This document shows, in pieces, positions 7,362-46,430 of a stretch of DNA of 47,255 nt. A model generated the notes under the pieces. That model worked only from the letters and a program-made list of their open reading frames with translations, did no database searches and was not told where the DNA came from. The stretch covers positions 1-47,255 of the forward strand of contig CAMWKM010000004.1 in assembly GCA_947174835.1 (NCBI GenBank), given 5' to 3'. The position numbers and the translations under genes are program-made. This DNA is from an uncultured Prevotella sp. GTDB lineage: Bacteria; Bacteroidota; Bacteroidia; Bacteroidales; Bacteroidaceae. Within the stretch, counting starts at the first letter, position 1. The number at the start of each line of letters is the position of its first letter.

Positions 7362-8369
7362 ATGGCAACAATTCATGAAAAAATTTCAAATCTTGGTAAA
7401 AGAATCATTTCTGCTTTCATAAGGAACAGGCGTGACAAAATGTTCATGGTGCTGGCACAGCAGATAGTCAGTGAAGAGGCATCATATAAAAGTAAAAGTA
7501 CCATCGACAACTATCACACTGCATTACGTTCGTTTTCCTGTTTCACCGGCACGGATATCCTTCTGAAGGATATAACTCCGCAATTGATGGAACATTACCA
7601 ACAGCATCTGAAACTCAGTGGAATATGCCTCAACACCATATCATGCTATATGCGTTCGTTACGGACATTGTATAACAAGATCATAACGAAAAAGAAATTC
7701 AAGCCTGCAAAGCATCCTTTCTGCAATGTATATAGGGGCAAGACGAAAACGCAGAAGCGTTCAATCACCGATGCCGAGATCTTGCAGATAAAAAGACTCA
7801 AACTGCCACAACATTCTTATATAAAACTATGTCAGGATACGTTCCTATTCAGTTTCTATGCGTTGGGAATGCCTTTTGTAGATATCGTATATCTGAAACA
7901 CTCACAAATCAAGAACGGCGAGATTTCCTACTATCGCCATAAGAACAAACAGCCGGTGCACGTCCTCATTGAGCCGTGTATTCAGGAAATTATAGACAGA
8001 TATTACAACAGCCAACGCAAGTACATATTCCCCTTTATAACTTCCGACGACAAACAGATTGCCGAGATGCAGTATCTCAAGCATCTTGGGAGATACAACC
8101 GTAACTTGAAACGGATAGCGGCAATGGCAGGAGTGACGGCAAACATCACGTCCTATACCATGCGCCATACGTGGGCAAGTCTTGCGTTCAGAAACAACAT
8201 AGACCTGCCGATCATATCCAAGGCATTAGGACACACAAATACAAACACCACGATAACTTATATCCGCGAGATTGACGACACCCCCATAGCAGAGGCCAAC
8301 CGAAAACTAATAGAAGGGTTGCATTTTCTCATGACAAGTCGGGACGATAGCGAGAATGATAAGGAATAA
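7362..8369 (+). CDS. tyrosine-type site-specific recombinase/integrase (Bacteroidetes invertase-like)
   Basis: N-terminal SAM-like domain (SKSTIDNYHTALRSF), TSYTMRHTWASLAF box, SKALGHTNTNTTITYIRE with nucleophile Tyr. Confidence 0.92.
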   Translation: MATIHEKISNLGKRIISAFIRNRRDKMFMVLAQQIVSEEASYKSKSTIDNYHTALRSFSCFTGTDILLKDITPQLMEHYQQHLKLSGICLNTISCYMRSLRTLYNKIITKKKFKPAKHPFCNVYRGKTKTQKRSITDAEILQIKRLKLPQHSYIKLCQDTFLFSFYALGMPFVDIVYLKHSQIKNGEISYYRHKNKQPVHVLIEPCIQEIIDRYYNSQRKYIFPFITSDDKQIAEMQYLKHLGRYNRNLKRIAAMAGVTANITSYTMRHTWASLAFRNNIDLPIISKALGHTNTNTTITYIREIDDTPIAEANRKLIEGLHFLMTSRDDSENDKE

Positions 8370-25190: not shown

Positions 25191-25323
25191 GGTCAATAAG
25201 ATGGCATTTTATTTATTATATAATAATGTATGCGTACATTTTATATAATATATAGCAGTCTCATCTAAAGGGAAATAATTCCAGAAGCTACTATTCTTTG
25301 AAATTGCTTTGCCTAAGATTAGT

Positions 25324-25551
25324 TCTCTTCAGGAGGTAGTTACGTTATTTTGCATTTTCATGCTTTTGGGGGCTTCCAAATTATTTTTTCATGGTTTTAA
25401 TACATGAAAAATTACTTTTTGATAGGAAAATTTGGATTACTTTTAAAATATTATGTATATTTCTTTAATTATTAAGAAATATTATGTACCTTTGCACCCT
25501 GTTACGAATTGGCTTTCTTCGATGTGTGTTTCTGCACACCTCCTGAAGAGA
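25324..25551. repeat. inverted repeat pair flanking the SusC1 promoter (putative invertible promoter 1)
   Basis: TCTCTTCAGGAGGT (25324-25337) is the exact reverse complement of ACCTCCTGAAGAGA (25538-25551). Confidence 0.6.
25464..25494 (+). promoter_or_regulatory. SusC1 promoter (TTTA-N19-TACCTTTG), currently facing SusC1
   Basis: TACCTTTG at 25487-25494 and TTTA at 25464-25467. Confidence 0.6.
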
Positions 25552-25609
25552 GGTATGCAGGAAAAGATAAAAGGATAATGAAATATCACAAATTAAAATA
25601 AATATTTAA

Positions 25610-28600
25610 ATGAAAAGAAAACTGGCAATGATGTTGATGTGCCTTTTGGTCAGTGTGACTACTGCCTTGGCACAGACAAAGGTTACAGGTACTGTCTTGG
25701 AAGATGGCACCGATGAACCTATCATTGGAGCCTCGGTAATGATTGCCGGCAGCAAGAAAGGTGTTACAACAGACATTAACGGACACTTCACGATAGAAGT
25801 TCCTGCCGGCAAGAAACTTACTTTCAGCTACGTTGGTATGCAACCTATCACCCTTGCTGCTAAGCAGCAGATGAAGGTTGTCATGAAGGCATCCAACACC
25901 ACTATCGACGAAGTGGTTGTCACAGGTATGCAGAAAACTGACAAGCGTCTCTTTACCGGAGCTTCATCAAAAATTGACGCAGACAAGACTCACCTCTCCG
26001 GTACAGTAGATGTCAGCCGCTCTCTCGAAGGTCGTGTGGCAGGTGTGCAGGTAACAAACGTCAGTGGCACGTTCGGTGCTTCTCCGAAGATCCGTGTTCG
26101 TGGTGCCACATCTATCTATGGTAACTCAAAGCCTCTCTGGGTGATTGATGGTGTTATCTATGAGGATAATGTTGATGTATCAGCAGACGAATTGTCCTCC
26201 GGCGATGCCAAGACCCTTATATCAAGTGCCGTGGCAGGCTTGAACTCTGATGACATTGAGTCGTTTACCATCCTGAAGGACGGTTCCGCTACATCTATCT
26301 ATGGTGCCCGTGCTATGGCAGGTGTGATTGTCATCACCACTAAACGCGGACAGAAAGGCCGTGCCAATGTAAGCTATACGGGTGAGTTCTCCACACGTCT
26401 GAAGCCGTCATACAATGACTACAACATCATGAACTCACAAGAGATGATGGGCGTGTACAAGGAAATGGCAAACAAGGGATGGCTCCAGTTGGAGAATCTT
26501 GTAAACGCCAAGAACACCGGTGTGTACGGATATATGTATAGGCAACTCCGCGCATTCGATGAGACGACAGGCAAGTTTGGACTGCCCAACACACAGGCAG
26601 CAATCAATGCCTACCTGCAGGAAGCAGAGTTCCGCAATACCGACTGGTTTGACCAGTTGTTCTCAAACAGCGTAACCCAGAACCATTCTGTAAGTCTTTC
26701 TATGGGTGGAGAGAAGTCACAGACCTACTTGTCGCTGTCTCTGATGGACGACCCCGGCCAGTATGTCAACCGCTCAAAGGTTCGCCGTTACACATTCAAC
26801 GGCAAGACCTCATACGATGTGCTGAGCAACCTTACCGTGAGACTTGCCGCACAAGGTAGCCACCGTGAGCAGGAAGCTCCCGGCTCCCTCAATCAGACTA
26901 CGGATGTCGTTACGGGTGAAGTGAAGCGCGACTTTGACATCAACCCGTTCTCGTATTCTCTGAATACCAGCCGCTGTCTTGATCCCAACATTGACTATAC
27001 CCGTTTCTATACAGGTTTCAATATCTTCAACGAACTGGAGAACAACTACAACGACATCAATGTAGACGAACTCATGTTCCGTGCGGAATTGGAGTATAAG
27101 CCGGTGAAGGGTCTTACGCTCAACGGACTTATCTCTACCCGTATGTCACGCACCAAGCGCCAGCACAATGTCATGGACGATTCAAACCAGGCCAATGCAT
27201 ACCGTGCCGGTGTCGATGCAACAGACGACAACTCCACAATCCGCAACTCTAACCCTCTGCTCTATACTGACCCGGACAATGAGCTTGCACTCCCGGAGAC
27301 CGTACTTCCTGAAGGTGGTATCAAGTATCAGTACGACAGTGAAATGCGTTCATACAACTATCGCTTCACAGCCGACTACCGCAATGTATGGAACGACCTC
27401 CACACGCTCAATGTCATGGCTGGTTCCGAGCTTTCTACCCTCAAGCGCGTAGAAACACACTGGACGGGTTGGGGCTACCAATTCAACAATGGCGGTATTG
27501 TCTATACACCGTATCTGTGGCTCAAGATGATGAACGAGGAGAACACTGACTACTTCTCTGAGGCATTCACACAGACTAATACGCTCGCATATTTCGGTAC
27601 TGCAACCTATAACTTTGATCAGCGCTACACCATCAACGGCACGTTCCGCTACGAAGGAACCAACCGCCTCGGTAAGGCAACCTCATCGCGCTGGCTTCCT
27701 ACATGGAACGTATCAGGTTCTTATGACGTCATCAATGAGAAGTTTATGAAGAACGCGCAGTCATGGCTTTCGCAGCTTAAGCTCCGCGCCTCATATTCGC
27801 TCACCGCTGATGCAGGTCCTTCGTTCGTAACGAATGCACAGACCGTTTATCACACAAAGAACACATGGCGTCCCACCACATCTGCTGCAGAGTCGCAGAT
27901 CTACATCGAGGATCTTGCCAATACCGAACTGACATACGAGAAGAAGCACGAGTTCAACATCGGTGTCGACTTCGGATTCCTCAACGATCGCATTGCAGTC
28001 AACTTCGATGCCTACTGGCGTAACAACTTCGACCTTATCGGTCGCACATACACGCAGGGTGCCGGTGGACAGATTGCCAAGTATGCCAACGTGGCCGACA
28101 TGAAGTCAAACGGTATGGAGTTTGGTATCTCTACTGTGAATATCAACAACAAGAACTTCAAGTGGACCTCTGATTTCATCTACTCTCACGCAAAGAACAA
28201 GATCACCAACCTTGAAACAGCATCACGCGCCATCGACCTTGTCAGTGGTCAGGGTTATGCCATCCAGGGCTATCCCGTACGTTCAATCTTCAGCTATCAG
28301 TTTGCAGGCTTGAACGACGAGGGTCTTCCTATGGTCTACAACGAAGAGGGTAAGGCCACAGTGGGTGACATTAACTTCCAGGAAACAGAAAACCTGACCG
28401 ACTTCCTCGTGTACGAAGGAGCATCAGACCCCACATGGTACGGTTCGTTCAACAACACGTTCACCTATAACTTCACTAACGGTGGAAAGCTCAACCTCGA
28501 TGTGTTCATCACATATTCAGGCGGCAACGTGGTGCGTCTCGACCCTGTCTTCAACTATTCTTATTCCGATTTGTCGGCACTTCCCAAAGAGTTCAAGAAC

Positions 28601-28969
28601 CGTTGGATGACCTCAGGCGACCAATTCATAACCAATATTCCTGCAATAGCTTCCCTCAACCAGCTTGACCGCTACGGCTCTACATCGCTGAAGACTGCAT
28701 ACAACGCCTACAACTACTCTACCGAGCGTATCGCAAAAGGCAACTTCATACGTCTCAAGGAGGTAGCTCTCTCGTATGCCTTCCCGCAGTCATGGCTCAA
28801 AAAGACCGTCATCCTGAACAGTGCTTCCCTGAAGCTCGCAACGACAAACCTCTGTCTGCTCTATGCTGACAAGAAGTTGAACGGACAGGATCCTGAGTTT
28901 ATCAACTCCGGCGGTGTGGCATCACCTATCACAAAGCAGTTCACTCTGACACTGCGTTGCGGATTCTAA
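25610..28969 (+). CDS. SusC/RagA family TonB-linked outer membrane protein
   Basis: CarboxypepD_reg-like TGTVLEDGTDEPIIGASVMI, plug IRVRGATSIYGNSKPLWVIDGV, SIYGARAMAGVIVITTKRG. Confidence 0.97.
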   Translation: MKRKLAMMLMCLLVSVTTALAQTKVTGTVLEDGTDEPIIGASVMIAGSKKGVTTDINGHFTIEVPAGKKLTFSYVGMQPITLAAKQQMKVVMKASNTTIDEVVVTGMQKTDKRLFTGASSKIDADKTHLSGTVDVSRSLEGRVAGVQVTNVSGTFGASPKIRVRGATSIYGNSKPLWVIDGVIYEDNVDVSADELSSGDAKTLISSAVAGLNSDDIESFTILKDGSATSIYGARAMAGVIVITTKRGQKGRANVSYTGEFSTRLKPSYNDYNIMNSQEMMGVYKEMANKGWLQLENLVNAKNTGVYGYMYRQLRAFDETTGKFGLPNTQAAINAYLQEAEFRNTDWFDQLFSNSVTQNHSVSLSMGGEKSQTYLSLSLMDDPGQYVNRSKVRRYTFNGKTSYDVLSNLTVRLAAQGSHREQEAPGSLNQTTDVVTGEVKRDFDINPFSYSLNTSRCLDPNIDYTRFYTGFNIFNELENNYNDINVDELMFRAELEYKPVKGLTLNGLISTRMSRTKRQHNVMDDSNQANAYRAGVDATDDNSTIRNSNPLLYTDPDNELALPETVLPEGGIKYQYDSEMRSYNYRFTADYRNVWNDLHTLNVMAGSELSTLKRVETHWTGWGYQFNNGGIVYTPYLWLKMMNEENTDYFSEAFTQTNTLAYFGTATYNFDQRYTINGTFRYEGTNRLGKATSSRWLPTWNVSGSYDVINEKFMKNAQSWLSQLKLRASYSLTADAGPSFVTNAQTVYHTKNTWRPTTSAAESQIYIEDLANTELTYEKKHEFNIGVDFGFLNDRIAVNFDAYWRNNFDLIGRTYTQGAGGQIAKYANVADMKSNGMEFGISTVNINNKNFKWTSDFIYSHAKNKITNLETASRAIDLVSGQGYAIQGYPVRSIFSYQFAGLNDEGLPMVYNEEGKATVGDINFQETENLTDFLVYEGASDPTWYGSFNNTFTYNFTNGGKLNLDVFITYSGGNVVRLDPVFNYSYSDLSALPKEFKNRWMTSGDQFITNIPAIASLNQLDRYGSTSLKTAYNAYNYSTERIAKGNFIRLKEVALSYAFPQSWLKKTVILNSASLKLATTNLCLLYADKKLNGQDPEFINSGGVASPITKQFTLTLRCGF

Positions 28970-39720: not shown

Positions 39721-41355
39721 TTACTCGTTGGAATCACCAGAATCCTTGAATGCATCGTTGTAGTCAGTCTCGTTCTGAGGAATGACCCAAGTCCAGTTAG
39801 GATCGGATGCAGGAATCTTGATGGCGATAGGAGCGGCAGCAGTGCCACCGTTGGTCAGACCCTTACGGTCGATGTCCATGTTCCAACGCTTGTAGTCGCT
39901 GAATCCGAAACCTTCACCCCAAAGCTCCAGGGCACGGTAGTTGCGAATCTCCTTCCACAGGCTCTCACCGGTGAGCGAGCAGGTGTAGTCCGGATTACGA
40001 CCGGTGCCGGCGTTCAGTTCAACGAGAGCAGCCTGTGCAGCCGTGGGATTACTGAGGAAATAGTTAGCCTCTGCCTCGATAAGCACCATCTCGGAAGAGC
40101 GGATGAAAGGCAGGTATCCTACGCCCGGAGTGTCGAACACGCGGAACTTAAGTTGACCGCCAAGGTAAGAATAACCGGCATCGTATGCAGGATCACCTTC
40201 ACCGTAAGCGTCCATCTTTGCTATATAAGCATATACCTGTTCCCAAAGGTCATCGTTGCCCAGTCCGAGAATACCGTATGCAGTGTTCACATCTGCAGCG
40301 CTTGCAATGTTAATGCCGGGGAACTTGTCCTCAGTGAGGAACAGAGCCTTACGGGCATCGTTGTCGGGAATCTGTGTGTAGAGCTCTCTGTCCATAGAGC
40401 CTGCACCGTTAGGTGTATTGTTTGCATAGTAGCCGTTGCAGGCATACTGTGTGCCGTAGCTCCAGTACCACATGTTCTCAGAAGCATCACCATAGCTACC
40501 GAAGATCCACTCTGACGTGGGACGGCAGAAGCCTGCCCAGTAGTCGGTGTTGCTCATCAGAGGATAGCCGGCACGTGCGAGCTTAGCCTGCGTCAGGGCT
40601 GTATCGTAGTCTTCCTTGGCGAGTGCTGCACGGGCATAGACGGCATGAGCCACATTCTTGTTGGCAATCCACACCTCGCTCTTGTCTCTGTCGTCGTCGC
40701 TGCTTTCAAACAGTGCAATGGCCTCTTTGCAGTCCTCATAGATCTGCTCGTAAGCTTTGGCCATTGTGGAGAGTGCCAGTCCGCCAGTCGACTCGTCGAC
40801 ACGGAGCACAAGACCGTCGGCTGCACCGTTGTTGGAATCCTTCCAGCGCACGCAATAGTAGTGGAGAAGCTTCTCGAAAGCGTATGCACGATAGGTCAGT
40901 GCCGATGCCTTGTCGAAATTCTTCAGGCTCTCAGTACCCTCTGCACCGTCAATGTTGCATATAATACTGTTGGCCTGGCTTATTATATTATAGTAGTAGT
41001 TCCAAGGGTAGGCATCATACGTAGTATTGTTACGCAATGAATACTGCAAATTCATGATGGGTCCCCAACCGCTTGCGTAGTAATTATAGAAATAATCCTG
41101 ACTTGCATAGTTCTCGTAGAGGGCAATGATGCGGTTTTCACCTGCACATCCCTGAGAGTATGCATACTGTTGGGTTGACATCGTCTTGGCAATACCGTTG
41201 AGAGCCATGTATGCATTTTCAGCACTTCCCACAGCCGTTCCGGTAGATACGGATTCCGTCGGAACTGTGTCGAGATAGTCACTTGCACACGATGTCATCG
41301 TAAGAGCTGCAATAGCAAGACTTCCTACAAATATTTTATTCATATACTTTTTCAT
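39721..41355 (-). CDS. RagB/SusD family nutrient uptake outer membrane lipoprotein
   Basis: Lipobox TMTSCASDYLDTVPT; ALTYRAYAFEKLLHYY, VGYLPFIRSSEMVLIEAEANYF, ELWGEGFGFSDYKRW. Confidence 0.95.
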   Translation of the reverse strand: MKKYMNKIFVGSLAIAALTMTSCASDYLDTVPTESVSTGTAVGSAENAYMALNGIAKTMSTQQYAYSQGCAGENRIIALYENYASQDYFYNYYASGWGPIMNLQYSLRNNTTYDAYPWNYYYNIISQANSIICNIDGAEGTESLKNFDKASALTYRAYAFEKLLHYYCVRWKDSNNGAADGLVLRVDESTGGLALSTMAKAYEQIYEDCKEAIALFESSDDDRDKSEVWIANKNVAHAVYARAALAKEDYDTALTQAKLARAGYPLMSNTDYWAGFCRPTSEWIFGSYGDASENMWYWSYGTQYACNGYYANNTPNGAGSMDRELYTQIPDNDARKALFLTEDKFPGINIASAADVNTAYGILGLGNDDLWEQVYAYIAKMDAYGEGDPAYDAGYSYLGGQLKFRVFDTPGVGYLPFIRSSEMVLIEAEANYFLSNPTAAQAALVELNAGTGRNPDYTCSLTGESLWKEIRNYRALELWGEGFGFSDYKRWNMDIDRKGLTNGGTAAAPIAIKIPASDPNWTWVIPQNETDYNDAFKDSGDSNE

Positions 41356-41382: not shown

Positions 41383-44300
41383 TTAGAAGTTTACGGTGAG
41401 ACCCAGGTTATATACACGGGCTGACACATAAGTATCGTCGTAGCCACCCATGAAGTTATACTGCGGGTTCATACCCTTGCGGCCAGTGATGGTGAAGAGA
41501 TTCTCAACTCCGAATACGACATTCAAACCGGTAACACCGACGTTTGCCTTGTGTATCAGTGCCTTGGGCAGGCTGTATGACAAGTTGAGGTTCTTGAACA
41601 CGAGATAAGATGCACTGGTGAGCCAACGATCGCTCGTGGCATTGTTGAATGTGCTCAGGTTGTAGTCGAGCACGGGAATGCCGTTAGGATCGATGCGGTT
41701 TGCCGAAGTCTCGGTCATACCGGCAGGCACTCCGTTCCATGACTTGACGATGTCCTTGTGCATAGCCGAGCCGCTTGACATGGCATTTGTAGACATGAGG
41801 CGCTGATAAGAACCGTCGAAGACCTTGCCGCCTAAGCTGTAGGTGAACAACATGCTGAGGTTGAAGTCCTTCCATGAAAGGTTAGAACTGACAGAACCAT
41901 ATACGGTAGGAGCAGCCGTGCCGTGGAAGTCGCGCAGACCGTATGCCGTATCGGTAGTATAGTCCACACCGTTGATGTTTACAAGTTTGCCCTGTCCCTC
42001 TGCGGTTGCCTTCTTCTCAGGATCAAGCGTGTAGAGTGAGTTACCGGTCATCTGGTCTACACCCTCGAAATGATAGGTATAGAAGTCATAGAGCGAACGG
42101 CCTTCGGTATAGTTGTGCATACCTGAAAGGATACTGTTACCATTGGGCAACTTGACAATCTTGTTCTTCAGGAACGTAGCGTCGACACCGATGTTCCACT
42201 TCCAATCAGAAGTAGCTATCACGTCACCGTCAAGTGCAATCTCGAAGCCACGGTTTGAAATGGTACCGATATTCTTGCTGATAGTGAGGTTGGTGGTCTC
42301 GTCGTTGTATGAGAATGCACCGGCAGAGTACGGCAGACGCACGGCGAACAGCAGGTCCTTGTTGCGCTTGTCGAAATAGCCGATAGAGAAGTTGAGACGG
42401 TTGAACAGACGGCCTTCAACGGCGATGTCAACAGTCTGTGTGGTCTCCCACTTGATGTCGTTTGCAGCAAGGCTCTGCTTCATCAGGGCGCTGTTGCCAC
42501 CGTTCTTGTCGATGTAGTAAAGAGCCTGATAGCCATAGTAGTCAACACCGGCATCGTTACCCACCTCACCGTATGAGGCACGCAGGCGCAGCTGGTCGAC
42601 CCAGTTGACGTCTTTCAGGAAGTCTTCCTTCTTGATGTTCCAGCTTGCACCGACAGAGAAGAAGTTACCCCAACGGTTGTCCGGATGGAAACGTGAAGAA
42701 CCGTCGCGACGGAACGAAGCATCGAAGAAGTACTTTTCGTCATAGTTGTAACGCACGCGGGCAAGATATGACTCTGTCTTGTAGTCGGTATCAGAACCAT
42801 AGACATAAGAGTTTGTCAGGAAGTTGCTCGGCACATAGATGCCGGGAATAGCCATGTTGGTATTCATGCCATAGAAACTCTTGACGTTGTACTCATAGTT
42901 CTCGTGGCCTACCATAGCGTCAACATGGTGAACACCGTACTGCTTGTCCCAGTTGATAAGCTGCTGGAGAGTAGCAGTAGAATATTCGTAGGCATAGCTG
43001 CTGAGACGACCGTTGTTGGTTGCACCGTCACCGATTTCTGCATTGTTGTAGTGAGTACGGTTGTTGGTGCGGTGAGCCATATTGCCTCTTACAGTGGCAG
43101 AGAATCCGTAAGGCAGATTCAGTGTGAGGAATGCAGTTCCGTCCAACACGTTGCGACGCTGCTCATCATAGTCGCGGCGAAGCTCGTAGGCAATGTTGCG
43201 GTTGTCAAGGTAAGGTGATGTCGTGTCATAAATAGCCTCACCGTTGGCATCATACTGGATGCTGCCGTCAGCATTGTGCATGTACACAGGATATACCGGA
43301 GCCATGTAGCGTGCTGTGTAGAAAGGATTTGAATAGTAACTTTCCTTAGCACTGTCGTTGAAATGACGCTTTGAAATGGTGGCATTGAGGTTCAAACCGG
43401 TTGTCACCCATTTGTTGGGAGTGTAGGTAGTATTGACACGACCAGTGTAACGCTCGTAGTCGCTGCCGATAACATAACCCTTCTCCTTAAGATAACCGAT
43501 AGAAGAATAGGTTCTTACCTTCTCTGAAGCAAAGCTTCCGGTGAGGTTATACTCCTGACGGCTACCGGTGCGCTCGATGTTGTCTTCCCAGTCAAGGTCG
43601 GTGTATCCGGGTAGAACATTGGCGGTAAAGCGACCGTCGGCATCGAACAGGGCGTTTGAAGCAGCATCGAAGATATTGCTCTTGATGACATCGGTAAGAA
43701 CATTCTCTGTTGCATAAGCCTTGGCTGCTGTCTCGTCGAGACCGAGAGAACCGGTCATAGCCCAGTTTCTCATGGCCTTCCATGAACTCTCCATGAAGTC
43801 TTTCACACCTACACGATCGTACTCCTTGATACCACGAGTGTACCAACCGGTGTTGACTTTCAGGGTGATGTCTGCCTTGTTGGCCGAAGCACCGCTCTTG
43901 GTGGTGATCAGAATGACACCGGCTGCAGCACGGTTACCGTAAAGAGCAGCACTGGCAGCATCCTTCAATACCGACATGCTCTGAATGTCGTTGGGGTTCA
44001 GGTCAGCGATATTGCCGCTATAGACAACACCGTCTACAACATAGAGCGGGCTGTTTGAACCGTTGATAGTGCCAATACCACGAATGCGGATGGAAGGCTC
44101 GGCACCGGGCTCACCGTAGGTATTGTTTACCTGTACACCGGGAGCGGCACCCTCAAGGGCTGCAGTAACGCTTGTGCCGATGCGCTTGTCGATCTCTTTT
44201 GAGTCAATGGCAGAAACGGCACCAGTCACCGACTGTCTCTTTGCAGTACCGTATGCCACAACCATCACCTCGTCAAGCATCTTGTCGTCTGAAGTAAGAA

Positions 44301-44571
44301 CCACGCGCATATTGGCCGAAGCCTTGGCGGTCTTTGTCTCCATACCGATGTACGAAATCTCCAGCAATGTGCCGTTGTTGACTTTGATCTCAAACAGGCC
44401 ATTTGCGTCAGTCACTGTACCGTTGTTAGTTCCCACTACTTTCACGGTTGCACCTATTACAGGCTGGCCGTCTTCAGAGGAAACAACAGTACCTTTGATC
44501 GCGTTTTGAGCAAACACTGCGCTGATTGAAAGCAGCAGGCACGTCAAAACCATCATGAGTCTTTTTTCCAT
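41383..44571 (-). CDS. SusC/RagA family TonB-linked outer membrane protein
   Basis: IKGTVVSSEDGQPVIGATVKV, VVAYGTAKRQSVTGAVSAI, IRIRGIGTINGSNSPLYVVDGV, ALYGNRAAAGVILITTKSG. Confidence 0.97.
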   Translation of the reverse strand: MEKRLMMVLTCLLLSISAVFAQNAIKGTVVSSEDGQPVIGATVKVVGTNNGTVTDANGLFEIKVNNGTLLEISYIGMETKTAKASANMRVVLTSDDKMLDEVMVVAYGTAKRQSVTGAVSAIDSKEIDKRIGTSVTAALEGAAPGVQVNNTYGEPGAEPSIRIRGIGTINGSNSPLYVVDGVVYSGNIADLNPNDIQSMSVLKDAASAALYGNRAAAGVILITTKSGASANKADITLKVNTGWYTRGIKEYDRVGVKDFMESSWKAMRNWAMTGSLGLDETAAKAYATENVLTDVIKSNIFDAASNALFDADGRFTANVLPGYTDLDWEDNIERTGSRQEYNLTGSFASEKVRTYSSIGYLKEKGYVIGSDYERYTGRVNTTYTPNKWVTTGLNLNATISKRHFNDSAKESYYSNPFYTARYMAPVYPVYMHNADGSIQYDANGEAIYDTTSPYLDNRNIAYELRRDYDEQRRNVLDGTAFLTLNLPYGFSATVRGNMAHRTNNRTHYNNAEIGDGATNNGRLSSYAYEYSTATLQQLINWDKQYGVHHVDAMVGHENYEYNVKSFYGMNTNMAIPGIYVPSNFLTNSYVYGSDTDYKTESYLARVRYNYDEKYFFDASFRRDGSSRFHPDNRWGNFFSVGASWNIKKEDFLKDVNWVDQLRLRASYGEVGNDAGVDYYGYQALYYIDKNGGNSALMKQSLAANDIKWETTQTVDIAVEGRLFNRLNFSIGYFDKRNKDLLFAVRLPYSAGAFSYNDETTNLTISKNIGTISNRGFEIALDGDVIATSDWKWNIGVDATFLKNKIVKLPNGNSILSGMHNYTEGRSLYDFYTYHFEGVDQMTGNSLYTLDPEKKATAEGQGKLVNINGVDYTTDTAYGLRDFHGTAAPTVYGSVSSNLSWKDFNLSMLFTYSLGGKVFDGSYQRLMSTNAMSSGSAMHKDIVKSWNGVPAGMTETSANRIDPNGIPVLDYNLSTFNNATSDRWLTSASYLVFKNLNLSYSLPKALIHKANVGVTGLNVVFGVENLFTITGRKGMNPQYNFMGGYDDTYVSARVYNLGLTVNF

Positions 44572-44727
44572 AAATCTCTCTCTTTTTTTTGTTTGTAAAT
44601 GTTATTTGTTGTATTTATTATTGTCCTTTACTAAAAAAGGCATCCTATTTTATGTCTTGTCTCATAACCTTAAATGTACACGTACATTATTATAATATTT
44701 TTGCGTCATTTTATGCTGCCGCATACC

Positions 44728-45116
44728 TCTGCGCCCGAGGTGTGCAGAGACATACCGAACAAAGGTAGTCTAATGCAGGGTGCAAAGTTACGCAATAGTT
44801 TTAAATAATCCAAACATATTTTTAAAAAAATAAAATATTAGGGGGTAAATGTATCAAAAATCAACTAAAAATGGCCAAAAGAGTAAAAAAATTAAGTTTA
44901 TTGTGTAATTCTGTTTCACTTTATTCAAATTCGTCTTCGCAGGAAACTGATGGTATTCCTGTTGGATTCAGCAGGTCGTCAGTCTTCCATTTTGCACATA
45001 TAAGTCAGCCGATTCGGTAGACCATTGTGTCATAATATTTTGTACATTAAAGGAGAAAACCATTTTTTTTGCTATAGTCCGTGCTATTCTGTGCCTCTGC
45101 ACACCTCGGGCGCAGA
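44728..45116. repeat. 22-bp perfect inverted repeat pair flanking the SusC2 promoter (putative invertible promoter 2)
   Basis: TCTGCGCCCGAGGTGTGCAGAG (44728-44749) and its exact reverse complement CTCTGCACACCTCGGGCGCAGA (45095-45116); enclosed segment 44750-45094. Confidence 0.75.
44783..44814 (-). promoter_or_regulatory. SusC2 promoter (TTTG-N20-TAACTTTG), currently facing SusC2
   Basis: Plus-strand CAAAGTTA at 44783-44790 and CAAA at 44811-44814. Confidence 0.75.
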
Positions 45117-45201
45117 ATTATGCTATATATATTAAAATGTACGCATACATTATATATATAAAGACAGGATGCCTTTTAATTAAGGATAATAAACATACTA
45201 A

Positions 45202-45344
45202 ATGAGCAAAACCATGAAATACTGACAATCGTCTATGATTTTTGTTTCTTTCTTGGTACCAGGGTGAAGGAAGCCCCATTGAACACGCTGGTCAAGAAAA
45301 AGTCAGCCTCCGCTGACAATGGCAGTGGCGAACAAAATTCCTAA
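45202..45344 (+). pseudogene. possible remnant of a HU-family DNA-binding protein gene (internal deletion)
   Basis: MSKTMKY* at 45202 followed by an open frame GTRVKEAPLNTLVKKKSASADNGSGEQNS* ending at 45344, just before the smalltalk-like ORF, where HU-like genes are usual. Confidence 0.35.
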
Positions 45345-45387
45345 GCCCCGCCTCTATTCTTATTAACCATTAAACATTCAAACAACA

Positions 45388-45486
45388 ATGAAAATCGACT
45401 GGAAATTCATTATCAAAGTGATTGCCGCCCTGGCTACTGCCCTGGCCACCGCGGTAGGTGCCACCGCCGTAGCCACAAACGTGTAA
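45388..45486 (+). CDS. smalltalk-like protein, 32 aa
   Basis: MKIDWKFIIKVIAALATALATAVGATAVATNV, below the ORF-track length cutoff; followed by a strong terminator. Confidence 0.75.
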   Translation: MKIDWKFIIKVIAALATALATAVGATAVATNV

Positions 45487-45578: not shown

Positions 45579-46430
45579 TTATTTTACCTGCACCACCAGA
45601 TACCTGCTGGTGCTCCAGAACTGCTGTGAGTTCTTGATGTAGAGCACATACTGGCGATTGGCATCGCGCTCCAATGTATAGCTGCCGGCGGGATGATTGG
45701 TCAGCAGTTTGGCATCGCGTGACATCAGTTTGATTTCCTTGTCAACCCGAATGTCTATCTTCGTGAAATAATTTTTGTTGAAATTGGCCTGCAACACCTC
45801 ATTGCTCTTCAGGATGTTCTGCTCTTTCAGTTCCTTCTTCGTGCCGAAAACAAACCAGGCTGTGTTCAGTTCCTTGTCCTGAATACCGATGGTTTCCTCT
45901 TTGCGGGTGTTCTCGTCCTTCAGTTGCACTACATCTTCGCTCAGTTGAGACACCTGCTCGTCCAATTCTGCAATATGGATGTCCTTGGCGGCCAATTCCT
46001 GACGCAACACCGTCAGTTCGCTCTCCTTCTGCTCCATCTGGGCTGTCAGGTTCTCCAAAGTCTTTCGCAACTGATCACTGGAGATAGTGGTTTCACGCAG
46101 ACGAAGGCGCAACTTATTGATAAGTTCCTTGTTCTGCCCCATTGTCTGCTGGATAAACTGCATATTCTCCTGAATGCGGGCAGTCGCATTGGCTCCCTCT
46201 CCCCGTCGCTCAACAGTGACACGTCCCTGTGCCTCGTTGATGGCACGGAACCCTTCCTCTATGCTATTGAAGGTCTCCAGCATATCGTTAATCTCAATGT
46301 CCTTCTGGACACTCACCCGTTCCAGCGAATCTACTTTCTGCTTCAGGGCATTTGTCTCTTGCGTATGCACGCTGTCCTTACACGATGCAAGCATCAACAG
46401 ACACGCAACAAATATAAAACACTTTTTCAT
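45579..46430 (-). CDS. coiled-coil lipoprotein, hypothetical
   Basis: Lipobox LMLASCKD; long heptad-like region. Confidence 0.75.
   Translation of the reverse strand: MKKCFIFVACLLMLASCKDSVHTQETNALKQKVDSLERVSVQKDIEINDMLETFNSIEEGFRAINEAQGRVTVERRGEGANATARIQENMQFIQQTMGQNKELINKLRLRLRETTISSDQLRKTLENLTAQMEQKESELTVLRQELAAKDIHIAELDEQVSQLSEDVVQLKDENTRKEETIGIQDKELNTAWFVFGTKKELKEQNILKSNEVLQANFNKNYFTKIDIRVDKEIKLMSRDAKLLTNHPAGSYTLERDANRQYVLYIKNSQQFWSTSRYLVVQVK

Follow-up and report, generated by a model that had tools for sequence, protein, structure and literature searches.

SusC/SusD pairs are surface-exposed and determine which nutrients a Bacteroidota cell imports. In B. fragilis these pairs are known to undergo phase variation through inversion of DNA (PMC4747536; review PMC12632263), and when inflammatory bowel disease is compared with controls, invertible regions near SusC/SusD show different orientations (PMC10939037). 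Three SusC/SusD clusters, along with nine other regions, are targets of the B. fragilis recombinase Tsr0667 (PMC4747536), whose SusC/SusD inversions are described there as shufflon-type multiple inversions (Nakayama-Imaohji 2009, summarised in PMC4747536). Another B. fragilis tyrosine recombinase, Tsr19 (BF2766), inverts both a local and a distant promoter (PMC4747536).

Here we describe a locus of this kind in an uncultured Prevotella sp., within a 47,255-nucleotide stretch of DNA (the window). Our reading, to which we assign a probability of about 0.8, is that 44721-45123 is an invertible promoter (inverton 2) that switches SusC2/SusD2 and is reduced from a toggle between two SusC operons. 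A sequence-only reading had proposed a perfect 22-bp inverted repeat at this place, and the repeat is indeed there: CTCTGCACACCTCGGGCGCAGA lies at 45095-45116 on the plus strand and its reverse complement at 44728-44749, enclosing a 345-bp spacer (44750-45094). This pair, which flanks a short intergenic segment, is the longest perfect inverted repeat of the window at spacings of 50-1000 bp, while the maximum reached in 20 Markov-2 random windows was 11-14 bp. Inverted repeats bounding a short AT-rich non-coding segment could also belong to a MITE, a small non-autonomous transposon with terminal inverted repeats. We give that explanation next to no credence: the interior occurs once in the whole genome, on which ground a MITE was rejected, each repeat is a dyad whose core is private, and in a relative (genome G209) the homologous segment lies between divergent SusC genes and holds both a promoter and a tyrosine recombinase.

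Each repeat has the build of a recombinase site, with an arm CACACCTC, a 7-bp core and an arm GAGGTRTG; read from inside to outside, both copies run CTCTGCAC-ACCTC-GGGCGCA-GA..TATGC. That each repeat is itself a dyad holds fully for the left copy only, in which GCACACCTC-N7-GAGGTATGC is intact, while the right copy carries two mismatches, both in the outer arm. The left site is thus GCACACCTC-GGGCGCA-GAGGTATGC (44721..44745, minus strand; core 44730-44736), with its outer arm on the SusC2 side, and the right site is GCACACCTC-GGGCGCA-GAATTATGC (45099..45123, plus strand; core 45108-45114), with a degenerate outer arm. The core, earlier put at 6-8 bp, was refined to 7 bp. Between these two 25-bp sites lies the putative invertible segment (44746..45098, no strand). 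The alternative junction was absent from all contigs of the one assembly, which shows a single orientation.

The promoter that had been proposed for the segment, TTTG-N20-TAACTTTG, was found on the minus strand (44784..44815, read from 44815 to 44784), aimed at SusC2 and predicted to be ON as assembled. As a consensus match it is the one full Bacteroidales promoter in the segment and one of only two in 47 kb; from the left site to the SusC2 start there is no TAnnTTTG (-7) box. The gene predicted to be switched, SusC2 (41383..44571, minus strand), encodes a SusC/RagA TonB-linked outer membrane protein and is followed in the same operon by SusD2 (39721..41355, minus strand) of the SusD/RagB family; both are clear members of their families. 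In the proposed mechanism, a tyrosine recombinase would bind the 8-9 bp arms of the two inverted sites, and strand exchange across the core GGGCGCA would flip the intervening segment. In the assembled orientation the promoter would face SusC2/SusD2 (ON); after inversion it would face a short right-hand relic and leave SusC2/SusD2 without its only recognisable promoter (OFF). We infer from sequence both the inversion of 44721-45123 in the source species and its effect on expression.

The same type of site recurs in the genome. Intact dyads of the form GCAYACCTC-N-GAGGTATGC number exactly three genome-wide, in the leaders of SusC1, SusC2 and SusC3. When the window was scanned for pairs of ACCTC-N7-GAGGT within 600 bp of each other, with identical inverted cores and mismatches allowed in the arms, exactly two pairs were obtained, and none in 20 random windows. 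The second pair, overlooked in the sequence-only reading, spans 25321-25554 and flanks the SusC1 promoter (inverton 1). Its left site (25321..25337, minus strand) has degenerate arms and shares the core CTGAAGA with its partner, GCACACCTC-CTGAAGA-GAGGTATGC (25534..25558, plus strand), which lies within the leader of SusC1. Between them a -7 box, TACCTTTG (25487..25494, plus strand), faces SusC1 (25610..28969, plus strand), the gene downstream. Because its left site is degenerate, inverton 1 may be weak or dead, and because its core differs from that of inverton 2, cross-recombination between the two should be prevented.

One further near-identical 22-mer exists in the genome, on contig C100 upstream of the unlinked SusC3. 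This orphan site (L006, G000:C100 10665-10693) has the core GGGCGCA, as in inverton 2, and the inner arm TCTGCACACCTC is common to four of the five sites. The SusC3 leader is 84% identical to that of SusC2, and a tRNA gene lies about 120 bp upstream of the orphan site on the other strand; by inspection, no promoter was recognisable between the tRNA gene/site region and SusC3. Since the SusC3 site matches inverton 2 in its core and almost entirely in its arms, exchange between SusC2 and SusC3 is conceivable, provided that the enzyme is active. We tentatively suggest, with more doubt than confidence, that a single recombinase acting in trans serves several SusC loci, with private 7-bp cores as their addresses, and that recombination between inverton 2 and C100 could hand the promoter to SusC3. 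If so, the transfer would proceed via a large chromosomal inversion, and the system would be a dispersed shufflon, the core sequence deciding which receptor genes share a promoter. As a separate observation, a near-palindrome, AATGTACGCATACATT, occurs in or near SusC leaders (window 25225-25240, 44673-44688 and 45136-45151; G000:C43:15493-15508).

A candidate enzyme is encoded in the window itself. The tyrosine recombinase at 7362..8369 (plus strand, 335 aa), a probable trans-acting invertase, is the sole member of its family in the source genome (E <= 1e-60) and combines a Phage_integrase domain (PF00589) with a SAM-like domain (PF13102). Alignment with XerD places the catalytic RH, H and Tyr, while the first catalytic Arg (Arg I) is missing, GMPFVD standing in place of XerD GLRVSE. 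Of 30 family members, at least 90% share GMPFVD, and the whole family (the window enzyme and its homologues in L091-L120) is without the canonical Arg I. The Arg I residue is also absent in IntDOT.

The family and the dyad go together in relatives. CACCTC-N7-GAGGTG, two inverted arms around a 7-bp core, was present with at most one mismatch at 18 of the 30 recombinase-family loci, against 0.2 expected from shuffling, and at one of 20 control loci, namely the window's own inverton. At the recombinase loci the spacing was 7 in 30 sites, 8 in three, and any other value in 0-1; in genome G052 the same dyad lies directly 3' of a tyrosine recombinase gene. All of the two-dyad loci (12/12) have identical inverted 7-bp cores, though the search at these loci did not require identity, and 11 different cores are represented among them. 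Partner cores are also identical in both pairs of the window. Two sister loci (G405 and G138; L208, L209), which share 96% identity across 9.6 kb, have cores one base apart, and within each genome both site copies bear the same core base; as the alignment reads, the partner cores have changed in concert. Matched partner cores are expected because strand exchange across the core demands identity. Since cores are private, the exact inverton 2 site was present in the source genome alone when 200 genomes of the genus were searched; unlike that search, the relaxed dyad search did recover relatives. A scan of genome contigs gave mostly unrelated chance dyads, a matching inverted partner within 1.5 kb being present only at L060 and L062; L069 in that scan is the G457 recombinase contig.

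These patterns also bear on whether the dyad is instead an RNA element, a hairpin near the 5' end of the SusC mRNA that regulates translation or stability, with the second copy incidental. The dyad does lie within the 5' leaders of SusC1, SusC2 and SusC3, and on inspection it could fold into a stem of 11 bp closed by a loop of 7 nt. However, the would-be loop is shared by the two members of every inverted pair and varies from locus to locus, a rule that a hairpin does not need; moreover, the stem is broken in the right copy and the dyads cluster around recombinase genes. We therefore rejected an RNA-hairpin leader on the behaviour of the loop and regard it as very improbable, although the hairpin may have a role besides recombination.

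The window enzyme is about 45% identical to most of the enzymes encoded within cassettes of relatives, and it lies about 17 kb from inverton 1 and about 36-37 kb from inverton 2. Of its two 70% relatives, the one in G338 adjoins a site of the same class that has a spacer of 8 bp and precedes a SusC gene, whereas no site was found within reach of the one in G340; G338 is thus the only relative found beside a site, and a family-level search (E <= 1e-75) added only one further, more distant match. Because it is the only family member in the genome and its G338 relative stands beside a site, the 7362-8369 enzyme probably acts on inverton 2 in trans, and in the proposed mechanism it would act likewise on the SusC1 inverton.

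A fuller version of the switch is found in Prevotella-type relatives, where the arrangement is typically SusC <-[site / recombinase + promoter / site]-> SusC. In eight genomes (G209, G415, G095, G020, G339, G037, G457 and G067) the sites enclose 1.2-2.5 kb of DNA within which lie the recombinase and, near one end, an outward-facing promoter box; divergent SusC genes stand on both sides. In six of the eight (not G457 or G067) the cassette shares a contig with a homologue of the gene that neighbours inverton 2 in the window (45579-46430; Cbp1-family lipoprotein model). The nearest copy of that gene, 86% identical, is in G209, about 12 kb from the cassette. In the literature, as far as our partial coverage of it extends, we found no report of the Prevotella-type site class or of a recombinase-containing SusC/SusC toggle. 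Shorter promoter invertons of about 150-200 bp with the same class of site also occur in relatives (L150, L152, L159, L161, L162, L163, L052 and L053); these precede non-SusC genes, and some adjoin the recombinase.

Comparison of sister species suggests that such cassettes flip. Between G153 and G131 the flank carrying the right-hand SusC operon aligns unflipped at 90.0% identity over 4.7 kb, whereas the 1.2-kb cassette interior is 95.0% identical only if flipped and 41% otherwise. The same promoter sequence points toward the SusC on the right in G153 and toward the one on the left in G131; judged by these alignments, the orthologous cassette is in opposite orientations in the two species. Across other genomes the recombinase runs toward the neighbour gene in four cases (G020, G339, G037 and G415) and in the other direction in three (G209, G095 and G035). 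G382 and G256 have the cassette in opposite contig orientation and, being without an anchoring flank, were left out of the evidence. Some contigs of relatives break off at a site or no more than roughly a hundred bases from one (G319:C50, 13082-13098 of 13103; G203:C31, 47864-47886 of 47970; G457:C62, 15741-15763 of 15798); such breaks could stem from mixed orientations in the sample, which is only suggestive. The earlier interpretation of the repeats as tyrosine-recombinase sites thus gains support on three counts: the arm-7-arm dyad clusters around one recombinase family, the core is the same within a pair and different between loci, and a homologous cassette lies in opposite orientations in two sister species.

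The window switch is best read as a reduced form of this cassette, lacking the recombinase and the right-hand SusC operon, because its segment aligns with the G209 cassette and the stretch to the right of it with the leader beside that cassette. The promoter end of the segment is 70% identical to one end of that cassette over 228 bp. To the right of the segment lies a putative relic of the right-hand SusC operon (45119..45243, plus strand), in which 45122-45161 aligns with the leader of the G209 right-hand SusC and a 44-bp stretch (45200-45243) matches the 3' end of the SusC3 operon. No recombinase remnant was found inside the segment. The ancestral cassette, of the kind that occupies the same chromosomal neighbourhood in relatives, would have carried the recombinase in its segment and toggled between two divergent SusC operons. 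With the recombinase and the right-hand operon gone, an ON/OFF switch would remain; we infer that the direction of change was loss, not gain. Further right (45246-45486) lie a truncated frame, putatively HU-like, and then a 32-aa peptide with a match to DUF6486; this arrangement would fit a deletion in which the right-hand operon was lost.

The same losses could mean that the toggle is now a locked relic, with SusC2 permanently ON beside two unused sites. This would account for the missing in-segment recombinase, the missing right-hand operon with its remains, and the degenerate right outer arm, but it sits poorly with two sites that retain 22 identical bases while the adjoining sequence has diverged. 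Nor would it lead one to expect that the genome keeps one family recombinase whose reading frame is intact and whose RH..., LGH and Tyr motifs are conserved, or a second site pair with the same arms at SusC1. We consider a locked relic unlikely and favour a working invertible promoter at SusC2.

If our reading is correct, a flippable SusC/SusC toggle conserved among Prevotella-type bacteria would generate sub-populations that differ in uptake and surface without mutation. The site rule (CACCTC, private 7-bp core, GAGGTG) is also a simple search pattern for switches in genomes or reads, and it suggests how one enzyme could serve several switches without cross-recombination.

How does this arrangement compare with known switches? 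The fljBA flagellar switch of Salmonella uses Hin, a serine recombinase, and a segment that drives a single operon. The cassettes of relatives resemble it in holding recombinase and promoter inside the invertible segment, but they encode a tyrosine recombinase, and the operons that would alternate are two divergent SusC operons. PhaseFinder-type invertible promoters of gut Bacteroidales likewise combine inverted repeats, an internal promoter and an invertase, and they control surface-related genes, including regions near SusC/SusD; they were called from reads in both orientations, whereas inverton 2 is predicted from the sequence of one assembly (PMC8748976, PMC10939037). With Tsr0667, the system proposed here shares a tyrosine-type invertase, inverted repeats, phase-variable SusC/SusD and one enzyme for several regions, while the shufflon at three clusters contrasts with the simple promoter flip that we predict. 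Tsr19 offers a parallel in that one enzyme serves several promoters, as we propose for the SusC1 and SusC2 invertons. It controls an extracellular polysaccharide and outer membrane protein cluster and adjoins one of its promoters, whereas the enzyme encoded at 7362-8369 is distant from both invertons.
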